This document shows positions 6,622 through 56,735 of a stretch of DNA of 64,000 bases, in pieces. This stretch comes from Halorussus salilacus. GTDB lineage: Archaea; Halobacteriota; Halobacteria; Halobacteriales; Haladaptataceae. A program made the translations under genes and the position numbers. Positions within the stretch are counted from its first letter, which is position 1; each line of letters starts with the position of its first letter. The notes beneath the pieces were generated by a model. That model saw only the letters and a program-made list of their open reading frames with translations. It was not told where the DNA came from and did not search any database. The stretch lies in the NCBI RefSeq assembly GCF_024138125.1, contig NZ_CP099993.1:2542001-2606000 (forward strand), read 5' to 3'.

Positions 6622-7268
6622 CCCGCGTGAAAGTCTGTGGCATCACCTCCCGGGAGGACCTCGACCTCGCGGTCGAGGCTGGTACCGACGCGGTCGGTCT
6701 GCTCGTGGACGTTCCGGTCGACTCGCCGCGAGAGATAGACCCGCGGCTGGCCGCCGACCTCGCCGATGCGGCCCCACCGTTCGTGACCACGGTGCTGGTG
6801 ACGATGTCCGACGCGCCCGACTGCGCCGCCGACCTCGCGCGCGCCGTCGAACCCGACGCGATTCAGGTCCACGGCGAGATGACCGTCGGCGACCTCGCGT
6901 ACCTCCAGTCGAACGTCGACGCTCACGTCATCAAGGCCGTCGACGCCGCTGACCCCGGGGCGGCCCGCCGATACGACGAGGTCGCCGACGCGTTGCTCGT
7001 CGATTCGGTGGACGACGACGGCGCGGGCGGCACCGGCCGGACTCACGACTGGGAGCGCACCGCGTCGGTCGCGGCCGACCTCGACTCGCCGGTCGTGCTC
7101 GCTGGCGGCCTGACGCCCGAGAACGTCGGCGACGCGGTCCGCGCGGTCGAACCGTTCGCGGTGGACGTGGCGAGCGGCGTGGAGTCGTCGGGCGGCCGGA
7201 AGGACCCCGAAGCCGTCGCCGCGTTCGTCGACGACGCCAAGTGCGCGCTGGAGACATCGACGCCATGA
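6618..7268 (+). CDS. trpF: Phosphoribosylanthranilate isomerase
   Basis: TrpF performs the Amadori rearrangement of phosphoribosylanthranilate to CdRP. The 216-aa TIM-barrel has the catalytic Cys in VKVCGIT near residue 7 and, toward the C-terminus, the general-acid Asp region ALLVDSVDDDG with the phosphate-binding loop VVLAGGLTPENV. The ATG overlaps the trpD stop by four bases and the TGA overlaps the trpE start in the same way, so the four genes form one translationally coupled unit. Confidence 0.95.
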   Translation: MTRVKVCGITSREDLDLAVEAGTDAVGLLVDVPVDSPREIDPRLAADLADAAPPFVTTVLVTMSDAPDCAADLARAVEPDAIQVHGEMTVGDLAYLQSNVDAHVIKAVDAADPGAARRYDEVADALLVDSVDDDGAGGTGRTHDWERTASVAADLDSPVVLAGGLTPENVGDAVRAVEPFAVDVASGVESSGGRKDPEAVAAFVDDAKCALETSTP

Positions 7269-8890
7269 CTTCTGACGCCACGAACGCCGACGCCATGACG
7301 CCAGAACGCGAGCGATTCGTCGAACTCGCCGAGAGCGACGACCGCACGGTCGTCCGAACCGCCGTCGAGCTCGACGCCGAGACCGCGCCGCTGTCGGCCT
7401 ACGCCGCGCTCACGGGACGGTCGACCGACCGCGACCCCGCCGACTACGCCTTCCTGCTGGAGAGCGCCGAGAAGACCGCCTCCAGCGACCCCGACGGCGC
7501 GTTCTCGCCGGGGTCGTCGGGCGACCGCCACGCCCGCTACTCCTACGTGGGCTACGACCCGGACGCGGTCGTGACGGTCGAACCCGGGGAGGTGTCGGTC
7601 GAGTCGCTGGGCGGCCGCGCGGGCGAGTACGTCTCGCCCGACGCCGCGGGCGACACCCTCGACGCGCTCCGAACCGCCCTGCCGGACGCCGAGCGGCGTG
7701 GATTCCCGGGTGAGGGCGACGTGGACCGCCAGCACTTCGACGGGGGACTGGTCGGCTTTCTCGCCTACGACGCGGTGTACGACCTCTGGCTCGACGAGGT
7801 GGGAGTCGAGCGTCCCGAGTCGCGGTTTCCGGACGCCCGGTTCGTCCTCAACACCAAGACCGTCGCCTTCGACCACCTCGCCGGGACAGTCTCGCTCGTG
7901 TTCACGCCCGTGGTGGGACCCGACGACGACCCCGAGACGGTGTACGACGAATTCCGGGCCGAGGCCGACCGCGTGGCCGCCCTGCTCGACGGGACCACCC
8001 CGCCCGAGACGGACGGGTTCGTCCGGGAGGACGAAACCGCGGGACCGCGAGACGAGTACGAGGACGCGGTCCGGACCGCCAAGGAGCACGTCCTCGACGG
8101 CGACATCTATCAGGGCGTCATCTCGCGCAAGCGCGAACTCCGCGGGGACATCGACCCGCTGGGGTTCTACGAGGCGCTCCGGGACGTGAACCCCTCGCCG
8201 TACATGTATCTGTTGGGCTACGACGACCTGACCGTGGTCGGCGCGAGCCCCGAGACGCTGGTGTCGGTCCGGGGCCGCGAGGTGATGGCCAACCCCATCG
8301 CGGGCACCTGCTCGCGAGGGTCGAGTCCGGTCGAGGACCGCCGACTCGCGGGCGAGATGCTCGCCGACGGCAAGGAGCGCGCCGAGCACACCATGCTCGT
8401 CGACCTCGCGCGAAACGACGTGCGCCGGGTGAGCGAACCCGGAAGCGTCAGCGTCGACGAGTTCATGAACGTCCTCAAGTACAGCCACGTCCAGCACATC
8501 GAGAGCACCGTCACGGGGCGACTCGCCGACGACTCGAACCCGTTCGACGCGACGCGCGCGGCGTTCCCCGCCGGGACGCTGTCGGGCGCGCCCAAGATAC
8601 GGGCGATGGAGATCATCGACGACCTCGAACGCTCGGCCCGCGGGCTGTACGGCGGCGGCGTGGGCTACTACTCGTGGACCGGCGACGCCGACTTCGCCAT
8701 CGTCATCCGGACCGCGACGGTCGAGCACGAGGGCGGCGACCCCGACCGCATCACGGTGCAGGCGGGCGCTGGCATCGTCGCCGACAGCGACCCGGCCTCC
8801 GAGTACGAGGAGACCGAGAAGAAGATGGACGGCGTGCTGACCGCGCTCCGGGAGATAGAGGTCTCCCGCCCGCCGGAGGTGGGACGATGA
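7265..8890 (+). CDS. trpE: Anthranilate synthase component I
   Basis: TrpE converts chorismate and ammonia (supplied by TrpG) to anthranilate. The 541-aa chorismate-binding enzyme shows the N-terminal tryptophan-feedback domain (with RYSYVGYDPDAVV) and the catalytic domain with DIYQGVISRK, NPSPYMYLL, GASPETLV, NPIAGTCSRG, AEHTMLVDLARND, FPAGTLSGAPK and GGGVGYYSW. The start was placed at ATG 7265, which overlaps the trpF stop (ATGA); an in-frame upstream start at 7241 would lie well inside trpF. It ends with an ATGA overlap into trpG. Confidence 0.97.
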   Translation: MTSDATNADAMTPERERFVELAESDDRTVVRTAVELDAETAPLSAYAALTGRSTDRDPADYAFLLESAEKTASSDPDGAFSPGSSGDRHARYSYVGYDPDAVVTVEPGEVSVESLGGRAGEYVSPDAAGDTLDALRTALPDAERRGFPGEGDVDRQHFDGGLVGFLAYDAVYDLWLDEVGVERPESRFPDARFVLNTKTVAFDHLAGTVSLVFTPVVGPDDDPETVYDEFRAEADRVAALLDGTTPPETDGFVREDETAGPRDEYEDAVRTAKEHVLDGDIYQGVISRKRELRGDIDPLGFYEALRDVNPSPYMYLLGYDDLTVVGASPETLVSVRGREVMANPIAGTCSRGSSPVEDRRLAGEMLADGKERAEHTMLVDLARNDVRRVSEPGSVSVDEFMNVLKYSHVQHIESTVTGRLADDSNPFDATRAAFPAGTLSGAPKIRAMEIIDDLERSARGLYGGGVGYYSWTGDADFAIVIRTATVEHEGGDPDRITVQAGAGIVADSDPASEYEETEKKMDGVLTALREIEVSRPPEVGR

Positions 8891-9468
8891 CCGAGGTGCT
8901 GTTCGTGGACAACTTCGACTCGTTCACGTACAACCTCGTGGAGTACACCAGCGAACACGCCGACACCGAGGTGGTTCGGAATACCGCCTCGCTGGCCGAC
9001 GTGCGCGAGACCGACCCCGACGCCGTCGTCATCTCGCCCGGTCCGGGCCACCCCGAGAACGACCGAGACGTGGGCGTCACGCTCGACGTGCTCCGAGAGG
9101 TGAGTCCGGAGGTGCCGACGCTCGGGGTGTGTCTCGGCCTCGAAGCCGCGGTCTACGCCTACGGGGGGTCGGTTGGGCGCGCGCCCGAACCGATTCACGG
9201 AAAGGCCTTCCCGGTCGCCCACGACGGGCGGGGGGTCTACGCGGGGCTGGAGCAGGGGTTCCGTGCCGGTCGGTACCACTCGCTGGTCGCGACCGAGGTC
9301 CCCGACTGCTTCGAGGTGACCGCGACGACCGACCACGAGGGAACGGAACTGGTGATGGGTATCCGCCACCGGGACCACCCCATCGAGTGCGTCCAGTTCC
9401 ATCCGGAGAGCGTGCTCACGGCCGTCGGTCACGACGTGATCCGGAACTTCCTCGACGGCGTGGCGTAA
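8887..9468 (+). CDS. trpG: Anthranilate synthase component II (glutamine amidotransferase)
   Basis: TrpG hydrolyses glutamine and channels ammonia to TrpE. The 193-aa class I amidotransferase shows DNFDSFTYNL at the N-terminus, ISPGPGHPEN, the nucleophile in LGVCLG, RYHSLV, and the His-Glu pair in FHPES. The usual GHQ after the nucleophile is GLE here, so the loop next to the active Cys differs from the bacterial consensus while the Cys-His-Glu triad is intact. It is the last gene of trpDFEG and is followed by a perfect hairpin at 9514-9557 that may end the transcript. Confidence 0.96.
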   Translation: MTEVLFVDNFDSFTYNLVEYTSEHADTEVVRNTASLADVRETDPDAVVISPGPGHPENDRDVGVTLDVLREVSPEVPTLGVCLGLEAAVYAYGGSVGRAPEPIHGKAFPVAHDGRGVYAGLEQGFRAGRYHSLVATEVPDCFEVTATTDHEGTELVMGIRHRDHPIECVQFHPESVLTAVGHDVIRNFLDGVA

Positions 9469-9513
9469 CCCCGTTTCGACCCTGTTGGCACACCCCAATT
9501 TCGGGGGAGTCGC

Positions 9514-9557
9514 GACCGCGAGCGAGACGGCGACGGTCCGCCGTCTCGCTCGCGGTC
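9514..9557 (+). terminator. Perfect 19-bp hairpin downstream of trpG
   Basis: The arms 9514-9532 and 9539-9557 are exactly complementary with a six-base acggtc loop. It starts 45 bases after the trpG stop, a position that fits an RNA stem at the operon end. No T-run follows, so classical archaeal termination is not shown. Confidence 0.55.
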
Positions 9558-9656
9558 ACGGCGACCCGTGTGTTCGATAGCGTCCGGTCCGCTGATCGTC
9601 TTCGGTTTTGGCTCAGCCGTATTTCAGGTTAGTCGGACTGGCGGTTACGAGGTACG

Positions 9657-9688
9657 GCGGTTTCGCCGCCGTTCGGCGGCGAAACCGC
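9657..9688. repeat. Perfect 14-bp inverted repeat
   Basis: The arms 9657-9670 and 9675-9688 flank a gttc tetraloop. It lies between the trpG hairpin and the convergent small membrane-protein gene and could serve as a 3'-end stem for the minus-strand gene. Confidence 0.8.
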
Positions 9689-9826
9689 TTTGGGACACTG
9701 CTGGCTGACTCACCAGCTATCTGCCCGCAACCGCGGGAGGACGATATACGTCCTCCGCGCGAAACGTCCAGTCCGGATTGGCCCCGGCTTCGTATTTAAA
9801 AGCTCGCGTCGAGGGGATGCGTCGCT

Positions 9827-10006
9827 CTACAGCAGGACGCCCGCTGTGTAGAGCGCACTAACGACCACGATGGCGACGAGGAGTAGCTTCCAGGCGACGC
9901 TCAACACGATTCGACCCACGAGGACGACGACCGCGAGGACGACCAATCCGGCCAGCAATTTTCCGAGCGGCGTCGCGAGCAGGCCGACGAACAGCGAAGG
10001 GAACAT
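9827..10006 (-). CDS. Small two-helix membrane protein (59 aa)
   Basis: An open frame from ATG 10006 to TAG 9827 encodes 59 residues, almost all hydrophobic, with two predicted membrane helices: FVGLLATPLGKLLAGLVVLA and VAWKLLLVAIVVVSALYTAG, separated by a short Arg-containing turn. An upstream tttaggg on its strand (about 10033) could be the TATA element. The clean alternation of hydrophobic helices and turn in a G/C-rich genome supports real coding, but I do not recognise the family. It is divergent from the nrdJ region. Confidence 0.6.
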   Translation of the reverse strand: MFPSLFVGLLATPLGKLLAGLVVLAVVVLVGRIVLSVAWKLLLVAIVVVSALYTAGVLL

Positions 10007-10330
10007 ATCGGAGACACGGGAGCCGTGGACCCTAAACGTATCGGCCAGCGGACCATCGGGCGGGCCGAGGAAGTCGCCAGCTTGCGACGGGGTAAGCCGA
10101 ACGTACTTAAGTACTCTCCCAGTTCGCCGACCACTTCCACTGCGGTCTACATACTCTTATTACCCTCCGGACCTAACGGACGAACGAACACCGAGAGTCG
10201 CGAATCCGTCCCGATCTGTCGGTCGGATGGACCTTCGCGACCGATTTCATTTCCGGACAGAGGCATCACAGTACAATCATAGTTGTAGTAGTCCAACTGC
10301 GACAGCAAAGGTTAAACCGGTGGCTTCAGA
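10007..10330. promoter_or_regulatory. Divergent promoter region upstream of nrdJ
   Basis: About 324 gene-free bases lie between the small membrane protein and the nrdJ leader. A 12-bp palindrome gtacttaagtac lies at about 10103-10114. A TATA-like gttaaacc at about 10311-10318 points rightward, predicting a start near 10340, just before nrdJ. No riboswitch or NrdR-type box was recognised. Confidence 0.5.
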
Positions 10331-10417
10331 ATGCAATCTCCGTCACGAATGAACCGCAACACTCGAACCAACGGTCCCGAAATCGACCGACAGACTCCCG
10401 AGGTGACCCGCGCATGA
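10331..10417 (+). other. Possible 28-codon leader ORF overlapping the nrdJ start
   Basis: ATG 10331 (or the in-frame ATG at 10349) opens a short frame ending with TGA at 10415-10417, overlapping the nrdJ ATG as ATGA. If transcription starts near 10340, the ATG at 10349 would be the first in the message. The predicted peptide is polar and Arg/Asn-rich and not recognised. It may be a coupling ORF or chance. Confidence 0.3.
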
Positions 10418-13400
10418 GCGGTGCGGGCGAACTCACCGCCGACGAGCTCACCCTCCCCATCAAGCGCACCGAAGGTGAGACGCTGGAGGACCGACTGACC
10501 GCCAACGCCTACCACAACATCCTCCCGGCGCGCTACCTCCGGAAGGACGCGAACGGCGACCTCGTCGAGGAGCAGGAGGACCTGTTCGTGCGCGTCGCGA
10601 AGAACATCGCGCTGGCCGAGGCCGTCTACGAGGCCGACAAGCGCGACGAGGAGATCACCGTCACGCCCGACCAGCTCAAACCCGACCACCCCCGACGCGA
10701 CGAACTCGCCGAGGAGGTGTTCGGCGCGGGCACGACCGCCGACGACGACGCCGAGACCGAGCTGTCGGTCTACAACGTAAACAAGTTCGCCTACGAGACG
10801 GTGGTCCCCGAGCTTCCCGAGGAGGTCCGCAGCCACGTCGAGGACGTCCGCGAGGAGTTCCAGGACCTGATGGAGGACCTCTCCTTTATGCCGAACTCGC
10901 CCACGCTGATGAACGCGGGCGACGAACTCCAACAGCTGTCGGCCTGCTTCGTCGATTCGCCCGACGACGACATCGACGACATCCACCAGACCGCCAAGGA
11001 GGCCGCGCAGGTCTTCCAGTCCGGCGGCGGCATGGGCTACGCCTTCTGGCAACTCCGCCCCTACGGCGACGCCGTTGGGAGCACGGGCGGCATCGCGTCG
11101 GGTCCCATCACCTTCATGCGCACGTACGACCAGATGTGCGAGACCATCGCGCAGGGCGGTGCCCGGCGCGGTGCCCAGATGGGCGTCATGCGCGTCTCCC
11201 ACCCCGACGTCATCCAGTTCATCCACGCCAAGAACAAGGACGTGAGCCTCGCGGAGACCCTCCGACTCAACGACCCCGACGACTACACCCACAACTCCTT
11301 CGGCGAGGCGCTCGAAGAGGCCCGCGAGCTCATCGACGACGAGGGCCGGGTCCCCAAGCACCTCCGGAACGCCGCCGAGGGCCACCTCTCGAACTTCAAC
11401 ATCTCGGTGGGCGTCACCGACGACTTCATGGAGGCCCTCCAGAACGGCGAGGAGTTCACGTTCACGAATCCCCGAACCGAGGAGCCCCACGTCGCCACCG
11501 AGCACACCAAGGAGCTCTACGAGATGTTCGGCCTCGGCGAGCACGTCGAAGTCGGCGAGGAACTGTCGATTCCCGCGGAGCTCATCTGGGACCGCATCGT
11601 CGACGGTGCTCACGAGAACGGCGAACCCGGCGTCATCTACCTCGAACGCGTCAACAAGGAGCACTCGTTCGACGTCGAGGAGCATCCCGACCACCGGATT
11701 CTGGCGACCAATCCGTGTGTGACCGGTGACACGCTACTCAGCACCGAGAACGGTCTCGTTCCGGCTGAGGAACTGTACGAAAAGGGCGTTGCAACCGATA
11801 TCGTCGTGGATGGTCGACTTAGCGAGGACTCCGTAAAGGAAGCGAGCAGTGTCTACAAGACCGGAGAAAAAGACGTTTACAAACTGACTACGGCGGAAGG
11901 TTACGAACTCCGTCTGACTGCCGACCACCGCGTGATGACCGACGACGGCTGGGTCGAAGCCCGGAACCTCGACGCGGGCGATACGGTCCACATCGTGAAT
12001 CAGAAGGGCGAGTTCGGCCAGCATGGGACTGCCGAAGAAGGCAAAGTGCTCGGTTGGCTCGTCGGCGACGGCCACCTCAAGCACGGTGAAGAGCGCGCCG
12101 TCCTCAATTTCTACGATGAGGACACCGAGATCTCGGAGGACTTCGCTGGCCACGTCAACGAAGTCGTTCGTGAACCGACCGGGAACGCGAACTACGAGGT
12201 CGGAGTCCAGCAGATCCAACGCGCCGACGAGTATCGTGGTGTCGACGCGCAGGAAGAGCGGGTTCGCTCTGCTCGTCTCTACGAACTCGCCGAACAGGCC
12301 GAGCTCACCGACGATAAGCTACAGGTCCCCGACAGCGTGATGCGGGGAAGTGAGGAGATGGCCCGCGGCTTCCTTCAGGCGCTGTTCACTGCCGACGGAA
12401 GCGTACAGGGGAACGTCGAGAAGGGCGTCTCGGTGCGACTCCACAGCGTCGACACCGACCTCCTCAAAGAGGTTCAGCAACTCCTGCTCAACTTCCGAAT
12501 CGCGAGCAAGGTCTACGAGGAGCGCCACGAGGCAGGGACGCACGCGATGCCCGATGGCAATGGCGGCACCACGGAATACGACCGCCAAGCGGACCACGAC
12601 CTCGTCATCGCGAAGGACAATCTCGTTCGTTTCCAAGAGGAGATCGGTTTCCTCCTCGACTACAAGAACGAGCAACTCCGCGAACATCTCGACTCCTACG
12701 ACCGCGGTCCGTACAGCGAACGGTTCGAGGCTACGGTCGAATCTGTCGAACGAGACGGTCACGAAGTGGTCTACGACCTGACCGAGCCCGAAACTCACTC
12801 GTTCGTCGCCAATGGCCTCGTCGTTCACAACTGTGGTGAGCAGCCCTTAGAGGAGTACGAGGCCTGCAACCTCGGCCACATCAATCTCTCGACGCTGGCC
12901 GACACCGACGCCCCCGACTGGCGGGTCTGGTACGACGAGCACGGCGAGGAGTACGACGACTTCTCGGAGGCGGTCGACGCCTTCCTCGCCGAGGCGATGG
13001 CGTGGGACGAGTTCGACCACCGCATCTCCTACGGCACCCGGTTCTTGGAGAACGTCGTCACGATGTCGGACTTTCCGGTCGAGAAGATAGAGCGGAAGGT
13101 CCGAGAGATGCGCAAGATCGGGCTGGGCGTCATGGGGCTGGCCCAGCTGTACATCCAGCTCGGTGTCGAGTACGGTAGCGAGGAGGCCAACGAGATCGCG
13201 CGCCAGCTGATGCGGTACATCAACCACGAATCGAAGTGGACCTCCCACGAGCTCGCCGAGGAGCGCGGGTCGTTCGCGGAGTGGGACAACTCGAAGTACG
13301 CCGACCCGACCGAGTACCGCGAGTGGTTCGAGAAGCAGACCGGCCTCGACGCCGAGGAGTGGGCCGACGGGTTCGCGATTCGCAACCACAACACGACCAC

Positions 13401-14634
13401 CATCGCGCCGACCGGCACCACCTCGATGGTCGGCAACACCACGGGCGGGTGCGAACCCATCTACAACGTCGCCTACTACAAGAACGTCTCCGACGACGTG
13501 CAGGGCGACGAGATGCTCGTGGAGTTCGACGACTACTTCCTCCGCGTGCTGGAGGACAACGACATCGACGTCGAGGAGGTCAAGCGCGAGGCACAGGACC
13601 AGATGGCGGAAAACGAGTTCGACGGCGTCGAGGGGCTCGAAACCGTCCCGGACGCCATCGGCGAGCTGTTCGTCGTCACCAGCGACCTCACCGGCAAGGA
13701 ACACGCCGCGGTCCAGTGCGCCTGTCAGGAGGGCGTCGACTCAGCGATCTCGAAGACCTGCAACTTCCCCAACGACGCGTCCAAGGGGGACATGCGCGAG
13801 GTGTTCGAGTACATCTACGAGAACGGCGGCAAGGGCGTGACCGTCTATCGGGACGGCACCCGCTCGAAGCAGGTTCTGACGACCCGCGCCGACAACAAGG
13901 AGTTCGCCGACGAGTCCGAGGCCGCCGAGGCGCTCGTCGAGCAGATTCGCGAGGTGTTCGGCGGTATCGAGGGCTTCGTCGAGAGCGACGAGGTGCAGGC
14001 CCACCTCGACCAGCAGGTCGAGTCCATCCTCGAAGCCGCAGACGGCGAGGACTCGTCCGGAGCCTACGCCGAGAAGCGCCCGCGTCCCGACGTACTCCAC
14101 GGCATCACCCAGCGCATCGACACCGGCTACGGCAAGCTCTACGTCAACATCAACGAGGACGACCGGGGCCGACCGTTCGAGCTGTTCGCCAACATCGGCA
14201 ACTCCGGCGGCTTCACCGCGTCGTTCACCGAGTCGCTCGCCAAGACCATCTCGACCGCGCTCCGCTCGGGCGTGGACCCCGAGGAGATCGCAGACGAGCT
14301 TCAGGGCATCCGTAGCCCGAAGGTCGCGTGGGACAAGGGCGAGCAGATAAACTCCATCCCGGACGCCATCGGCACCGCGATGCGCCGGTACCTCGATGGC
14401 GAAGTCGAGAAGGCCTACCCCCAACAGAAGAACCTGACCGAGGTCGAAGAGGAGGTCCAGCCCGAACAGCAACCCGAGGGCGTCGAGCTCAGCGCGGCCG
14501 ACAGCCACGAGGCCGACCAGCAGGACATCATCGACTCGGGCGAGAGCCCGGAGTGTCCGAGTTGCGGGTCGCTGTCGCTGTACTACTCGGAGGGCTGCAA
14601 GACCTGCGAGTCGTGTGGCTGGAGCGAGTGCTGA
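10414..14634 (+). CDS. nrdJ: Adenosylcobalamin-dependent ribonucleotide reductase with intein
   Basis: NrdJ reduces ribonucleotides to deoxyribonucleotides using a B12-derived radical, oxygen-independently. The 1406-aa precursor consists of a 1034-residue class II reductase and a 372-residue intein (residues 435-806). Extein features are FMPNSPTLMNAG, the substrate-site Cys region LQQLSACFV, GGGMGYAF, the catalytic NPCGEQPL split by the intein, ATAPTGT-like IAPTGTTSMVGNTTGGCEP, and a C-terminal Cys-rich tail (CPSCGS, CKTCESCGW) that could bind zinc or act as redox relay. No nrdB partner is nearby, as expected for class II. The start ATG 10414 overlaps a short upstream ORF. A cobalamin adenosyltransferase at 62225 supplies the cofactor. 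Activity requires protein splicing. Confidence 0.97.
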   Translation: MSGAGELTADELTLPIKRTEGETLEDRLTANAYHNILPARYLRKDANGDLVEEQEDLFVRVAKNIALAEAVYEADKRDEEITVTPDQLKPDHPRRDELAEEVFGAGTTADDDAETELSVYNVNKFAYETVVPELPEEVRSHVEDVREEFQDLMEDLSFMPNSPTLMNAGDELQQLSACFVDSPDDDIDDIHQTAKEAAQVFQSGGGMGYAFWQLRPYGDAVGSTGGIASGPITFMRTYDQMCETIAQGGARRGAQMGVMRVSHPDVIQFIHAKNKDVSLAETLRLNDPDDYTHNSFGEALEEARELIDDEGRVPKHLRNAAEGHLSNFNISVGVTDDFMEALQNGEEFTFTNPRTEEPHVATEHTKELYEMFGLGEHVEVGEELSIPAELIWDRIVDGAHENGEPGVIYLERVNKEHSFDVEEHPDHRILATNPCVTGDTLLSTENGLVPAEELYEKGVATDIVVDGRLSEDSVKEASSVYKTGEKDVYKLTTAEGYELRLTADHRVMTDDGWVEARNLDAGDTVHIVNQKGEFGQHGTAEEGKVLGWLVGDGHLKHGEERAVLNFYDEDTEISEDFAGHVNEVVREPTGNANYEVGVQQIQRADEYRGVDAQEERVRSARLYELAEQAELTDDKLQVPDSVMRGSEEMARGFLQALFTADGSVQGNVEKGVSVRLHSVDTDLLKEVQQLLLNFRIASKVYEERHEAGTHAMPDGNGGTTEYDRQADHDLVIAKDNLVRFQEEIGFLLDYKNEQLREHLDSYDRGPYSERFEATVESVERDGHEVVYDLTEPETHSFVANGLVVHNCGEQPLEEYEACNLGHINLSTLADTDAPDWRVWYDEHGEEYDDFSEAVDAFLAEAMAWDEFDHRISYGTRFLENVVTMSDFPVEKIERKVREMRKIGLGVMGLAQLYIQLGVEYGSEEANEIARQLMRYINHESKWTSHELAEERGSFAEWDNSKYADPTEYREWFEKQTGLDAEEWADGFAIRNHNTTTIAPTGTTSMVGNTTGGCEPIYNVAYYKNVSDDVQGDEMLVEFDDYFLRVLEDNDIDVEEVKREAQDQMAENEFDGVEGLETVPDAIGELFVVTSDLTGKEHAAVQCACQEGVDSAISKTCNFPNDASKGDMREVFEYIYENGGKGVTVYRDGTRSKQVLTTRADNKEFADESEAAEALVEQIREVFGGIEGFVESDEVQAHLDQQVESILEAADGEDSSGAYAEKRPRPDVLHGITQRIDTGYGKLYVNINEDDRGRPFELFANIGNSGGFTASFTESLAKTISTALRSGVDPEEIADELQGIRSPKVAWDKGEQINSIPDAIGTAMRRYLDGEVEKAYPQQKNLTEVEEEVQPEQQPEGVELSAADSHEADQQDIIDSGESPECPSCGSLSLYYSEGCKTCESCGWSEC
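11716..12831 (+). mobile_element. Intein with LAGLIDADG-type homing endonuclease in NrdJ
   Basis: The intein begins with Cys435 of the precursor (CVTGDTLL, splicing block A), has block B LTADHRVMT, and ends VVHN before the extein Cys (CGEQPL), so all residues for standard splicing are present. The central endonuclease shows two dodecapeptide motifs, VLGWLVGDGHL and FLQALFTADGSV, each with its acidic residue, so it may still be active. It interrupts the reductase active-site sequence NP/CGEQPL, a site where inteins are known in archaeal reductases. Third codon positions are visibly less G/C-rich than in the flanking extein, consistent with separate ancestry. Confidence 0.96.
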
Positions 14635-54070: not shown

Positions 54071-54328
54071 ATGAGTACCTGTCACAACTGCGGTCACGCC
54101 GGTACGTTCGTACTGCTCGTCGAGTTCGCCCTCGCGGTTCGAGACGGCTCGCCGAATCCCGACTCGACCGACTCCGACCGCCCGGACCGCGGCGATTCCA
54201 CTCATGCGGGTCGCTCGACCCGCCGGGAGTGGTCGCTTTCGGTTCAGTGTCCGGCCTGCGACAGCACCGACGTGGGCGTCGCGGCCACCGACCTACTGGC
54301 GGGTCAGGGGTCGAGCACTACGTCGTAG
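54071..54328 (+). CDS. Small zinc-ribbon protein
   Basis: An 85-aa protein. The N-terminal CHNCGHAGTF and C-terminal CPACDSTDVG form two CxxC pairs consistent with one zinc ribbon; the middle is low-complexity Asp/Ser/Arg-rich. It resembles haloarchaeal proteins such as DUF7837-type zinc ribbons. Its 3' end overlaps the convergent 54304 gene by 25 bases. Function unknown. Confidence 0.65.
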   Translation: MSTCHNCGHAGTFVLLVEFALAVRDGSPNPDSTDSDRPDRGDSTHAGRSTRREWSLSVQCPACDSTDVGVAATDLLAGQGSSTTS

Positions 54329-54759
54329 CGGTCGTCGACCGCCCCGTCACTCTCGGCCGACCAGACGACCAGCGGCGCGTCGGCCTCGCGCGCGGCGGCC
54401 GACAGCCGACGTTCCAGCAGGTCGACCACGCCGACCGACCACCACGAGGTAATCTGCTCGCGCGCGCACAGCCACACCGCCGACGGTCGTCGTTCGTCTA
54501 TCAGCCCCGCCGCGCAGTCGGCCGCCGCGCGAGCGTCGGCCCCGTCGTATCGCCGGACCGCCCTGCCGCCCTCGGTCGCGGCGGTGACGTACAGCGACCC
54601 CTCGGGACGGTCGACGCCCAGCGACGCGACGACGCCGGGTTCGACCGTGACGGTGTCGGGCGGTTTCGGCGGTGCCGTCGCGCCGCGGACGAGCGCGGTC
54701 TGCCCGCCGGTTCCGTGCAATCGCCTCGACAGTTGTTTCAGGGCGAGTCCGGACTTCAT
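54304..54759 (-). CDS. Haloarchaeal conserved hypothetical, divergent from AbrB regulator
   Basis: A 151-aa protein starting at ATG 54759 (MKSGLALKQLSRRLHGTGGQ). The middle contains a beta-rich segment (DTVTVEPGVVASLGVDR, GSLYVTAATEGGRAVRRY) and the C-terminus SAVWLCAREQITSWWSVGVV resembles strands of a small Rossmann-like or PIN-like fold, but no family is recognised. Its promoter contains a 17-bp box (54763-54779) shared with the divergent AbrB gene, so it is probably controlled by that regulator. Function unknown. Confidence 0.55.
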   Translation of the reverse strand: MKSGLALKQLSRRLHGTGGQTALVRGATAPPKPPDTVTVEPGVVASLGVDRPEGSLYVTAATEGGRAVRRYDGADARAAADCAAGLIDERRPSAVWLCAREQITSWWSVGVVDLLERRLSAAAREADAPLVVWSAESDGAVDDRYDVVLDP

Positions 54760-54762
54760 TGA

Positions 54763-54779
54763 CTAAATAGTCGAAGTAG
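54763..54779. promoter_or_regulatory. Putative operator box A (17 bp)
   Basis: ctaaatagtcgaagtag differs from box B (54945-54961) at two positions. On the minus strand it lies between a TATA-like ttatgta (about 54787-54793) and the start codon at 54759, the usual place for a repressor site. A further half-site, tagtcgaa, follows at about 54777-54784. Confidence 0.6.
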
Positions 54780-54944
54780 TCGAAAGTACATAACGGTGTC
54801 GGTGACCGCATCGGTCACCACTCGACTTCGGGGCGTGACCGGCCCGACGTTCGGCGACCGGTGACTATCTGTGGTTCGCGCCAAATAACCATCATAAAAC
54901 TGAGAATTATACCGGCAAATCTTAGTCTATTTAGGATTTAAACG

Positions 54945-54961
54945 CTATATAGTCGAAATAG
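54945..54961. promoter_or_regulatory. Putative operator box B (17 bp)
   Basis: ctatatagtcgaaatag lies just downstream of a TATA-like gatttaaac at about 54934-54942 and before the presumed start of the AbrB-gene transcript. Same sequence and orientation as box A with two changes. Confidence 0.6.
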
Positions 54962-55002
54962 CTAAGAGTCCCTAATAGTACCGTTACCCAAGACGCCAGT
55001 AG

Positions 55003-55179
55003 ATGAGCGACGATACCGAAGAGAAGATACTCGGCACGACGACAGTGACCCAGCGATGGCGAATCAGCCTCATCAAAGCCGTCCGCGAGGAGTTCGCCGA
55101 CGACGGCATGGACGTAGAGGAGGGCGACCGCCTGGTCTACAAGCTGCGCGACGGCGAGATCGTCGTCGAGCCCGCCTGA
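55003..55179 (+). CDS. AbrB/SpoVT-family DNA-binding protein (58 aa)
   Basis: ATG 55003 to TGA 55179 encodes 58 residues (MSDDTEEKILGTTTVTQRWR). The pattern TTTVTQRWRISLIKAVREEF through EEGDRLVYKLRDGEIVVEPA fits the swapped-hairpin AbrB fold of archaeal transition-state-like regulators. It is divergent from the 54304 gene, and both promoters carry the same 17-bp box, so it probably represses itself and that gene. Too short for many gene callers; I am confident it is coding. Confidence 0.75.
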   Translation: MSDDTEEKILGTTTVTQRWRISLIKAVREEFADDGMDVEEGDRLVYKLRDGEIVVEPA

Positions 55180-55263: not shown

Positions 55264-56361
55264 ATGAGCCTTCGGAAGCCGCCACTGCGCGACGTCCACG
55301 ACGCGCGCGGTGCGACGTTCACGGAGTTCGGCGGGTGGGAGATGCCCGTCGAGTTCGACTCGATTCAGGACGAACACCGCGCGGTCCGCGAGGAGGCGGG
55401 CGTCTTCGACGTCTCCCACATGGGCGAGATCGAGGTTGGCGGCTCGGACGCCGAGACCCTGATGCAACGGCTCACCACCAACGACGTGACGAACCTCGAC
55501 GCCGGGGACTCCCAGTACGCGATGATAACCGACGACGAGGGGACGATTCTGGACGACACGGTCGTCTACCGACTCCCCGAGAGCGAGGACTCGGCGTTCC
55601 TCTTCGTCCCGAACGCGGGCCACGACGAGCAGATGTACGACCGGTGGGTCGACCACCGCGACGAGTGGGACCTCGACGCAACCGTCTCGAACGTCACGGA
55701 CGACTACGCCATGTTCGCGGTTCAGGGGCCCGACGCCGTCGACCTCGTCGCCGACGCGACCGAGGAGTCGCTCGGTGACCTCTCGAAGTTCGAGGCCAAG
55801 TACGCCACGGTCGCGGGCGTCCGTTGCTGGGTCGCGCGCACCGGATACACCGGCGAGGACGGCTTCGAACTCCTGCTCGACGCCGACGAGGCCGAGACGG
55901 TCTGGGAGGCGCTCGACTGCCAGCCCTGCGGGCTCGGCTCCCGGGACACCCTCCGGATGGAGATGGGGTTTCTGCTCTCCGGGCAGGACTTCGACCCCGA
56001 GGAGGACCCCCGGGACCCCTACGAGGCGGGCGTCGGGTTCACCGTGAAGCTCGACACCGAGTTCGTCGGCCGGGACGCCCTCGAACGCGTCAAGGAGGAG
56101 GGCGTCGAGGAGGAGTTCGTCGGCATCAAGCTCGTGGACCGCGGCATCGCGCGCCACGGCTACGAGGTGACCGACCGCGAGGGCGAGGTCATCGGCGAGG
56201 TCACCAGCGGGACGATGAGCCCCACCCTGAACGAACCCATCGCGCTGGGGTACGTCCCGACCGAGTTCGCCGACGCCGACACCCGGGTCGGCGTCCGGGT
56301 TCGCGGCGAGTCCAAAAAGGCAAAGATAGCGACCGTCCCATTCCTGAGTGAGAAACGATGA
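55264..56361 (+). CDS. gcvT: Aminomethyltransferase (glycine cleavage T protein)
   Basis: GcvT takes the aminomethyl group from lipoyl-GcvH to tetrahydrofolate, releasing ammonia. The 365-aa protein has N-terminal [20 protein letters not shown], folate and catalytic regions ([34 protein letters not shown]), and C-terminal [20 protein letters not shown]. It is the first gene of gcvT-gcvH-gcvPA-gcvPB. The stop overlaps the gcvH start (ATGA). ATG 55264 is preceded by a short spacer after the AbrB gene. Confidence 0.96.
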
Positions 56362-56735
56362 GTTTCGATGTACCCGACGACCGGAAGTACCTGGAATCGC
56401 ACGAGTGGGTCGAGGACGGCGACGGGCCCGTCAAGATCGGCATCTCCGACTTCGCGCAGGACGAACTCGGCGACGTGGTGTTCGTCGAACTCCCCGGCGA
56501 GGGCGACGACCTCGCGGCGGGCGAGGAGTTCGGCGTGGTCGAGTCGATTAAGGCGGTCTCGGACCTCTACTCGCCGGTGAGCGGCGAGGTGGTCGCGGTC
56601 AACGACGCGCTCGAATCCCAGCCCGAACTCGTCAACGACGACCCGTTCGGCGACGGGTGGATGATAGAGGTCGAAGTGTCCGAGGAGAACGGCGACCTCC
56701 TGTCGGCCGACGACTACCGCGAGCAGATAGAGTAG
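56358..56735 (+). CDS. gcvH: Glycine cleavage system H protein
   Basis: GcvH carries intermediates on lipoate. The 125-aa protein has the lipoyl-lysine Lys65 in [19 protein letters not shown] and the typical [20 protein letters not shown] start. ATGA overlap with gcvT. It is followed by a small reading frame and palindrome, then gcvPA. Confidence 0.97.

Follow-up and report, generated by a model that had tools for sequence, protein, structure and literature searches.

Why should a divergent gene pair carry nearly the same box in both of its promoters? The question arises in the 64,000-nucleotide stretch of Halorussus salilacus DNA analysed here (the window), where a gene for a small AbrB-like protein and a leftward gene of unknown family are transcribed away from a common intergenic region. 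A sequence-only reading of this DNA had proposed that each gene has a 17-bp box just downstream of a TATA-like element, where the AbrB protein would act as a repressor of both genes, and that this might be a small regulatory switch not described before. The host is a haloarchaeon with a genome of about 66-68% G+C, and the features of the locus are collected in Table 1.

Table 1. The divergent abrB locus: features, window positions and the grounds for each assignment
Feature	Position	Strand	Remarks
Left gene, transcribed away from abrB; 151 aa, family unknown	54304-54759	-	no Pfam/NCBIfam match
Left-hand 17-bp box, CTAAATAGTCGAAGTAG	54763-54779	+	includes part of palindromic GACTAAATAGTC at 54761-54772
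Second copy of the 28-bp element, ATAGTCGAAGTAGTCGAAAGTACATAAC	54767-54794	+	starts 8 nt from the left gene's ATG; overlaps the left-hand box over most of its length
Probable left-gene TATA, TTATGTAC	54786-54793	-	-34 to -27; box between TATA and ATG
Right-hand 17-bp box, CTATATAGTCGAAATAG	54945-54961	+	first four bases (CTAT) vary among relatives
Candidate abrB promoter/operator element, 28 bp, ATAGTCGAAATAGCTAAGAGTCCCTAAT	54949-54976	+	-54 to -27 from the abrB ATG; holds most of the right-hand box
Probable TATA-like hexamer of abrB, CCTAAT (CATAAC in most relatives)	54971-54976	+	-32 to -27 from ATG; position and conservation
AbrB-like regulator, 58 aa, ILGTTxVTxRWRISLIKxVREE signature	55003-55179	+	TIGR01439 E=6e-5, below curated cut-off
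gcvT (glycine cleavage T protein), own promoter region	55264-56361	+	protein sequence and synteny
gcvH, next after gcvT	56358-56735		protein sequence and synteny

The boxes and the 28-bp element

A direct check of the sequence confirmed the two 17-mers, both on the + strand and with two differences between them. No further match with up to three mismatches was found in the whole window, dinucleotide shuffles of which gave 0.04 matches on average and never two, and an 18-mer close to the boxes in sequence, CTAWWTAGTCGAAATAGC, occurs with up to two mismatches nowhere else in the 3.6-Mb genome. The repeat therefore stands, but not the length first given to it: the bases 3' of the right-hand 17-mer, CTAAGARTCCATAAC, are conserved among relatives whereas its 5' CTAT is not, and the true unit is 28 bp, the 17-mers being the cores of two copies of this longer element in the same orientation.

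The abrB copy is strongly constrained. When 17 Halorussus abrB promoters are anchored on their ATG, ATAGTCGAAATAGCTAAGARTCCATAAC is near-invariant, at 1.75 bits per position vs 0.42 just upstream. In 10-bp blocks, the gcvT promoters of these genomes attain about 1.4 bits, and the longest run of positions at 1.5 bits or more is 19 in the abrB element vs 2 in the gcvT promoter. A leave-one-out matrix, built from the abrB promoters of 16 relatives and scanned over the window, ranked the abrB copy first (51.4 bits) and the left copy second (29.4 bits; its matrix scores range over 28.4-29.4); the third-best match (15.6 bits) falls within the coding sequence 10414-14634, and the best of 20 simulated windows scored 10.9. 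By eye, this large open reading frame resembles a ribonucleotide reductase with an intein-like insertion.

The AbrB-like gene is present in 17 Halorussus genomes, the window's included, and in all sampled Haladaptatus and Halomicrococcus; throughout this sample it lies nearly always immediately upstream of gcvT-gcvH. Conservation among relatives, the lack of which the sequence-only reading had named as a refutation, was found for the boxes and for the divergent pair alike. Both stretches are AT-rich within a GC-rich genome, and a chance likeness between two such promoters could have been suspected; the shuffle counts, the genome-wide uniqueness, the conservation and the matrix scores are all contrary to it. 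We rejected this explanation, which conservation already refutes, and give it virtually no credence. Because the element is also retained in front of abrB in three Halorussus species without the left gene (G008, G016 and G017), it serves abrB itself. In an incomplete eighteenth Halorussus genome, an intact element precedes an abrB gene that lacks its middle and is out of frame (L111, G011:C74), possibly through an assembly error.

The divergent promoter and its second copy

Most relatives carry a single copy of the element midway between the divergent genes. In the 12 genomes with an undisturbed pair, 63-65 nt separate the two start codons and enclose one element; TCCATAAC/GTTATGGA would serve as TATA in both directions. 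Bidirectional promoters with a single TATA-like element are known from Pyrococcus furiosus, in which about 50 bp separate the TSSs and bidirectionality is a general by-product giving antisense RNA (PMC6640164). The likeness lies in the one TATA-like element between divergent starts, the 63-65 nt measured here separating start codons and not TSSs; the present case differs in that both genes of the conserved pair are coding and that the box is a dedicated one.

Haloarchaeal mRNAs are mostly leaderless (72% of the transcripts in Hfx. volcanii, PMC4983044) and the CATAAC hexamer is found at -32 to -27, so that the box likely lies upstream of the abrB TATA. This hexamer also has the same position as TTATAA before a gene of the cassette described below in relatives. 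The TTTAAA at 54937-54942, presumably the abrB TATA of the sequence-only reading, occurs in this species alone and is not conserved in relatives; it could act as a TATA here. On the other side, TTATG or TTATA is kept about 34-38 nt upstream of the left-family start codons, with the box between it and the start. The idea of a box just downstream of a TATA in both directions thus holds for the left gene and fails for abrB, whose conserved TATA-like hexamer is downstream of the box. For the same reason, repression by blocking is not implied at the right-hand box.

Why, then, does the window hold a second copy? It is oriented like the one at abrB, contains CATAAC and gives the second-highest score of the locus; in relatives, the left-gene copies lie 11 nt from the left ATG and likewise rank second behind abrB's own. 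The same place in relatives is occupied by an intact tandem abrB paralogue (four genomes), by a decayed one (G009, 30.5 bits) or by the element alone. The tandem paralogues and the decayed copy would explain the two elements: those of the window probably stem from a duplication of the abrB promoter region, one copy of which was kept by the left gene. The boxes are probably duplicates of one ancestral shared site and not two separately placed operators. No trace of a former abrB paralogue was detectable between the two copies of the window (33 of 200 shuffles were as good), which counts against this part of our interpretation.

Given this history, the left copy could also be a remnant of the duplicated promoter, without function, and the right copy alone might matter. 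The orientation of the left copy, its CATAAC, the intact and decayed paralogues at this place in relatives and the decay of the copies in genomes with the cassette would all fit. However, the copy keeps a fixed distance from the left ATG and ranks second in most species from which the paralogue has disappeared, and the single element of sister genera is common to abrB and the left gene; we regard a mere leftover as rather unlikely. In most species with the cassette between the left gene and abrB, the left-gene copies are nevertheless degraded, which makes regulation of the left gene less secure than that of abrB.

The cassette itself is found between the left gene and abrB in six Halorussus (L115-L120), some of which have a paralogue too, and its completeness varies: it is complete in L119 (G007:C2:284200-289500) and partly decayed in others. 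It encodes a protein of about 700 aa, a DUF7504 protein and a 55-aa peptide. The C-terminal half of the large protein looks CHAT-like by eye; the protein has no Pfam or NCBIfam match.

Range of the element

A matrix trained on Halorussus promoters only was run over 22 loci that are either outside the genus or hold unlinked paralogues. At all 19 loci of the same AbrB subfamily, the element ranked first among about 7,000-12,000 positions per locus, and the top position was a promoter site that begins 52-55 nt upstream of the ATG; scores were modest at some of these loci (5-12 bits), yet still first there. The 19 loci include four Haladaptatus paralogues away from gcvT whose products are 54-61% identical to the window protein. 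With the same matrix, no such element was found at the loci of three distant AbrB genes without the subfamily signature. The element is thus a conserved site in the regulator's own promoter which moves with the gene to other loci.

Several neighbourhoods in these genomes deserve mention. A second Haladaptatus abrB of the same subfamily carries the TAGCTA...CATAAC part of the element (L063, L064, L069 and L070); in at least L063, L064 and L069, the gene after it encodes a DUF7504-type protein, with DUF7344 and HalOD1 domains in L069. In L071-L073, a DNA cytosine methyltransferase-like gene lies 78-129 nt from a distant AbrB group that lacks the element, in divergent orientation.

In the genomes searched, matches with at most one mismatch occur only at abrB, at its tandem paralogues and at the left-gene copy; weaker matches elsewhere are no commoner than those of a reversed control pattern. 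Three exact 12-bp matches exist elsewhere in the genome; two are intragenic and the third is some 180 bp upstream of an orc1-like gene. A genome-wide regulon was therefore rejected, matches to the long element being no more frequent than those of the reversed control. Confinement to its own loci rather points to a local, probably autoregulatory site. In two genomes (L001 near 1504, G000:C1:262993, and L113 near 1506, G012:C2:401831), a box-like TAGTCGAA precedes orc1/cdc6-like genes by about 180-270 bp, which may be chance.

The element is real and strongly conserved, and it tracks the AbrB gene subfamily and the divergent pair; by what it is read can be argued. It might be a core promoter only, an unusual BRE-TATA combination read by general factors or by a particular TFB/TBP pair without any binding of AbrB: a TATA-like hexamer is at the right place, the element contains CGAAA, which was proposed as the BRE motif of haloarchaea (PMC4983044), and a conserved shared promoter alone could explain the conservation. 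But the element is limited to one gene subfamily and its partner, was not found at other promoters and is conserved far above the adjacent gcvT promoter, and we consider a pure core promoter unlikely. Alternatively, a different trans-acting regulator could control abrB and its partner through this operator, as conservation shows that the site is read and not by what. Self-regulation would be expected to leave just the pattern seen, a site that accompanies members of the abrB subfamily at unlinked loci in several families and is absent elsewhere, and we consider a foreign regulator quite improbable.

The two proteins and a proposed switch

The profile scores of the AbrB-like protein are below the curated cut-offs (22.6 bits vs 28.3 for TIGR01439 and 15.2 vs 24.7 for PF04014), and 19 of 23 members of its family match TIGR01439 at E<0.01. 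The monomer model (pLDDT 81) has the beta-alpha-beta-beta order. This order and the domain match at E=6e-5 are what it shares with the swapped-hairpin DNA-binding proteins AbrB, SpoVT and MazE (TIGR01439, PF04014); it departs from them by its sub-cut-off score, by RWRISLIK in place of the usual pattern and by lying outside a MazEF-type operon. A Foldseek search of the model against the PDB gave no significant match, which is to be expected of one half of a swapped dimer, and a profile search of the family against PDB sequences found no match; the sub-cut-off score and a fold search that found no AbrB count against the reading proposed below. A toxin-antitoxin system of the MazEF type was not recognised at the locus: the partner is divergent and matches no toxin family, and the next gene is gcvT.

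Of 59 related genomes, 26 encode a member of the left family, and throughout the genome samples it was encountered only where abrB is present, except for the incomplete genome with the damaged abrB. In further lineages (Halegenticoccus, Halomarina and others), diverged proteins of this family lie at the same position, with profile E-values of 1e-24 to 4e-7 from a small candidate set; two more lineages gave weaker values. The family is fast-evolving and found only alongside this AbrB subfamily. One homologue is split across two frames (G002:C1:2099051-2099538), possibly by a frameshift. The model of the window protein (pLDDT 86.5) has KaiC as its best match (Z 8.8 over 123 residues at 12% identity) and weakly resembles the KaiC/RecA fold, this Z being near the level of common arrangements. 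An RNase H/RuvC-like fold gave the top Foldseek matches and was rejected, TM being about 0.35 and KaiC scoring higher in VIA-align; kinship with DUF7504 was likewise discarded after a negative profile comparison (four sequences on the DUF7504 side).

We propose that AbrB binds the 28-bp element, the candidate promoter/operator of this haloarchaeal AbrB-like subfamily, and thereby adjusts its own transcription and that of its divergent partner; we put the probability of this reading at 0.64. In the common single-copy arrangement, the protein would bind between the two genes: upstream of the abrB TATA, it would tune abrB, and between the TATA and the start of the partner, it would block the partner. 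In the window species each gene has a copy to itself, a state that probably arose when the abrB promoter region was duplicated. Because the boxes and the pair are conserved, the element tracks the subfamily and the left copy has a fixed place, autoregulation with control of the left gene would be the most economical reading, whichever sign the regulation may have. It is tempting to go further, although we find it doubtful, and to imagine a dedicated haloarchaeal two-gene switch, in which the AbrB-like protein and a fast-evolving, KaiC/RecA-shaped partner are transcribed in opposite directions from a common TATA and a common operator and the partner perhaps senses a signal and acts on AbrB.

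The working mode of such a switch would not be new. PhaR of Haloferax mediterranei is an AbrB-like regulator of phaRP which represses its own promoter, probably via promoter repeats (PMC9049629, PMC7137286). It has its domain type in common with the AbrB of the window, both being small haloarchaeal proteins with an AbrB-like domain; it is cotranscribed with phaP and functions with PHA granules, whereas the AbrB of the window is divergent from its partner. What appears novel is the subfamily, the element and the partner, which we did not find described in the open literature searched, where nothing was found on AbrB in Halorussus or on DUF7504 either; the suggestion of an undescribed switch must be narrowed to these, autoregulated divergent promoters being known (cf. 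PhaR, PMC9049629).

Few archaeal regulators have known sites, and the element provides a sharply defined, testable candidate site for an uncharacterised archaeal regulator subfamily. It also links this subfamily to an unknown protein family found only with it, and its fixed geometry round one TATA-like element offers a simple natural case of the choice between two transcription directions in archaea.
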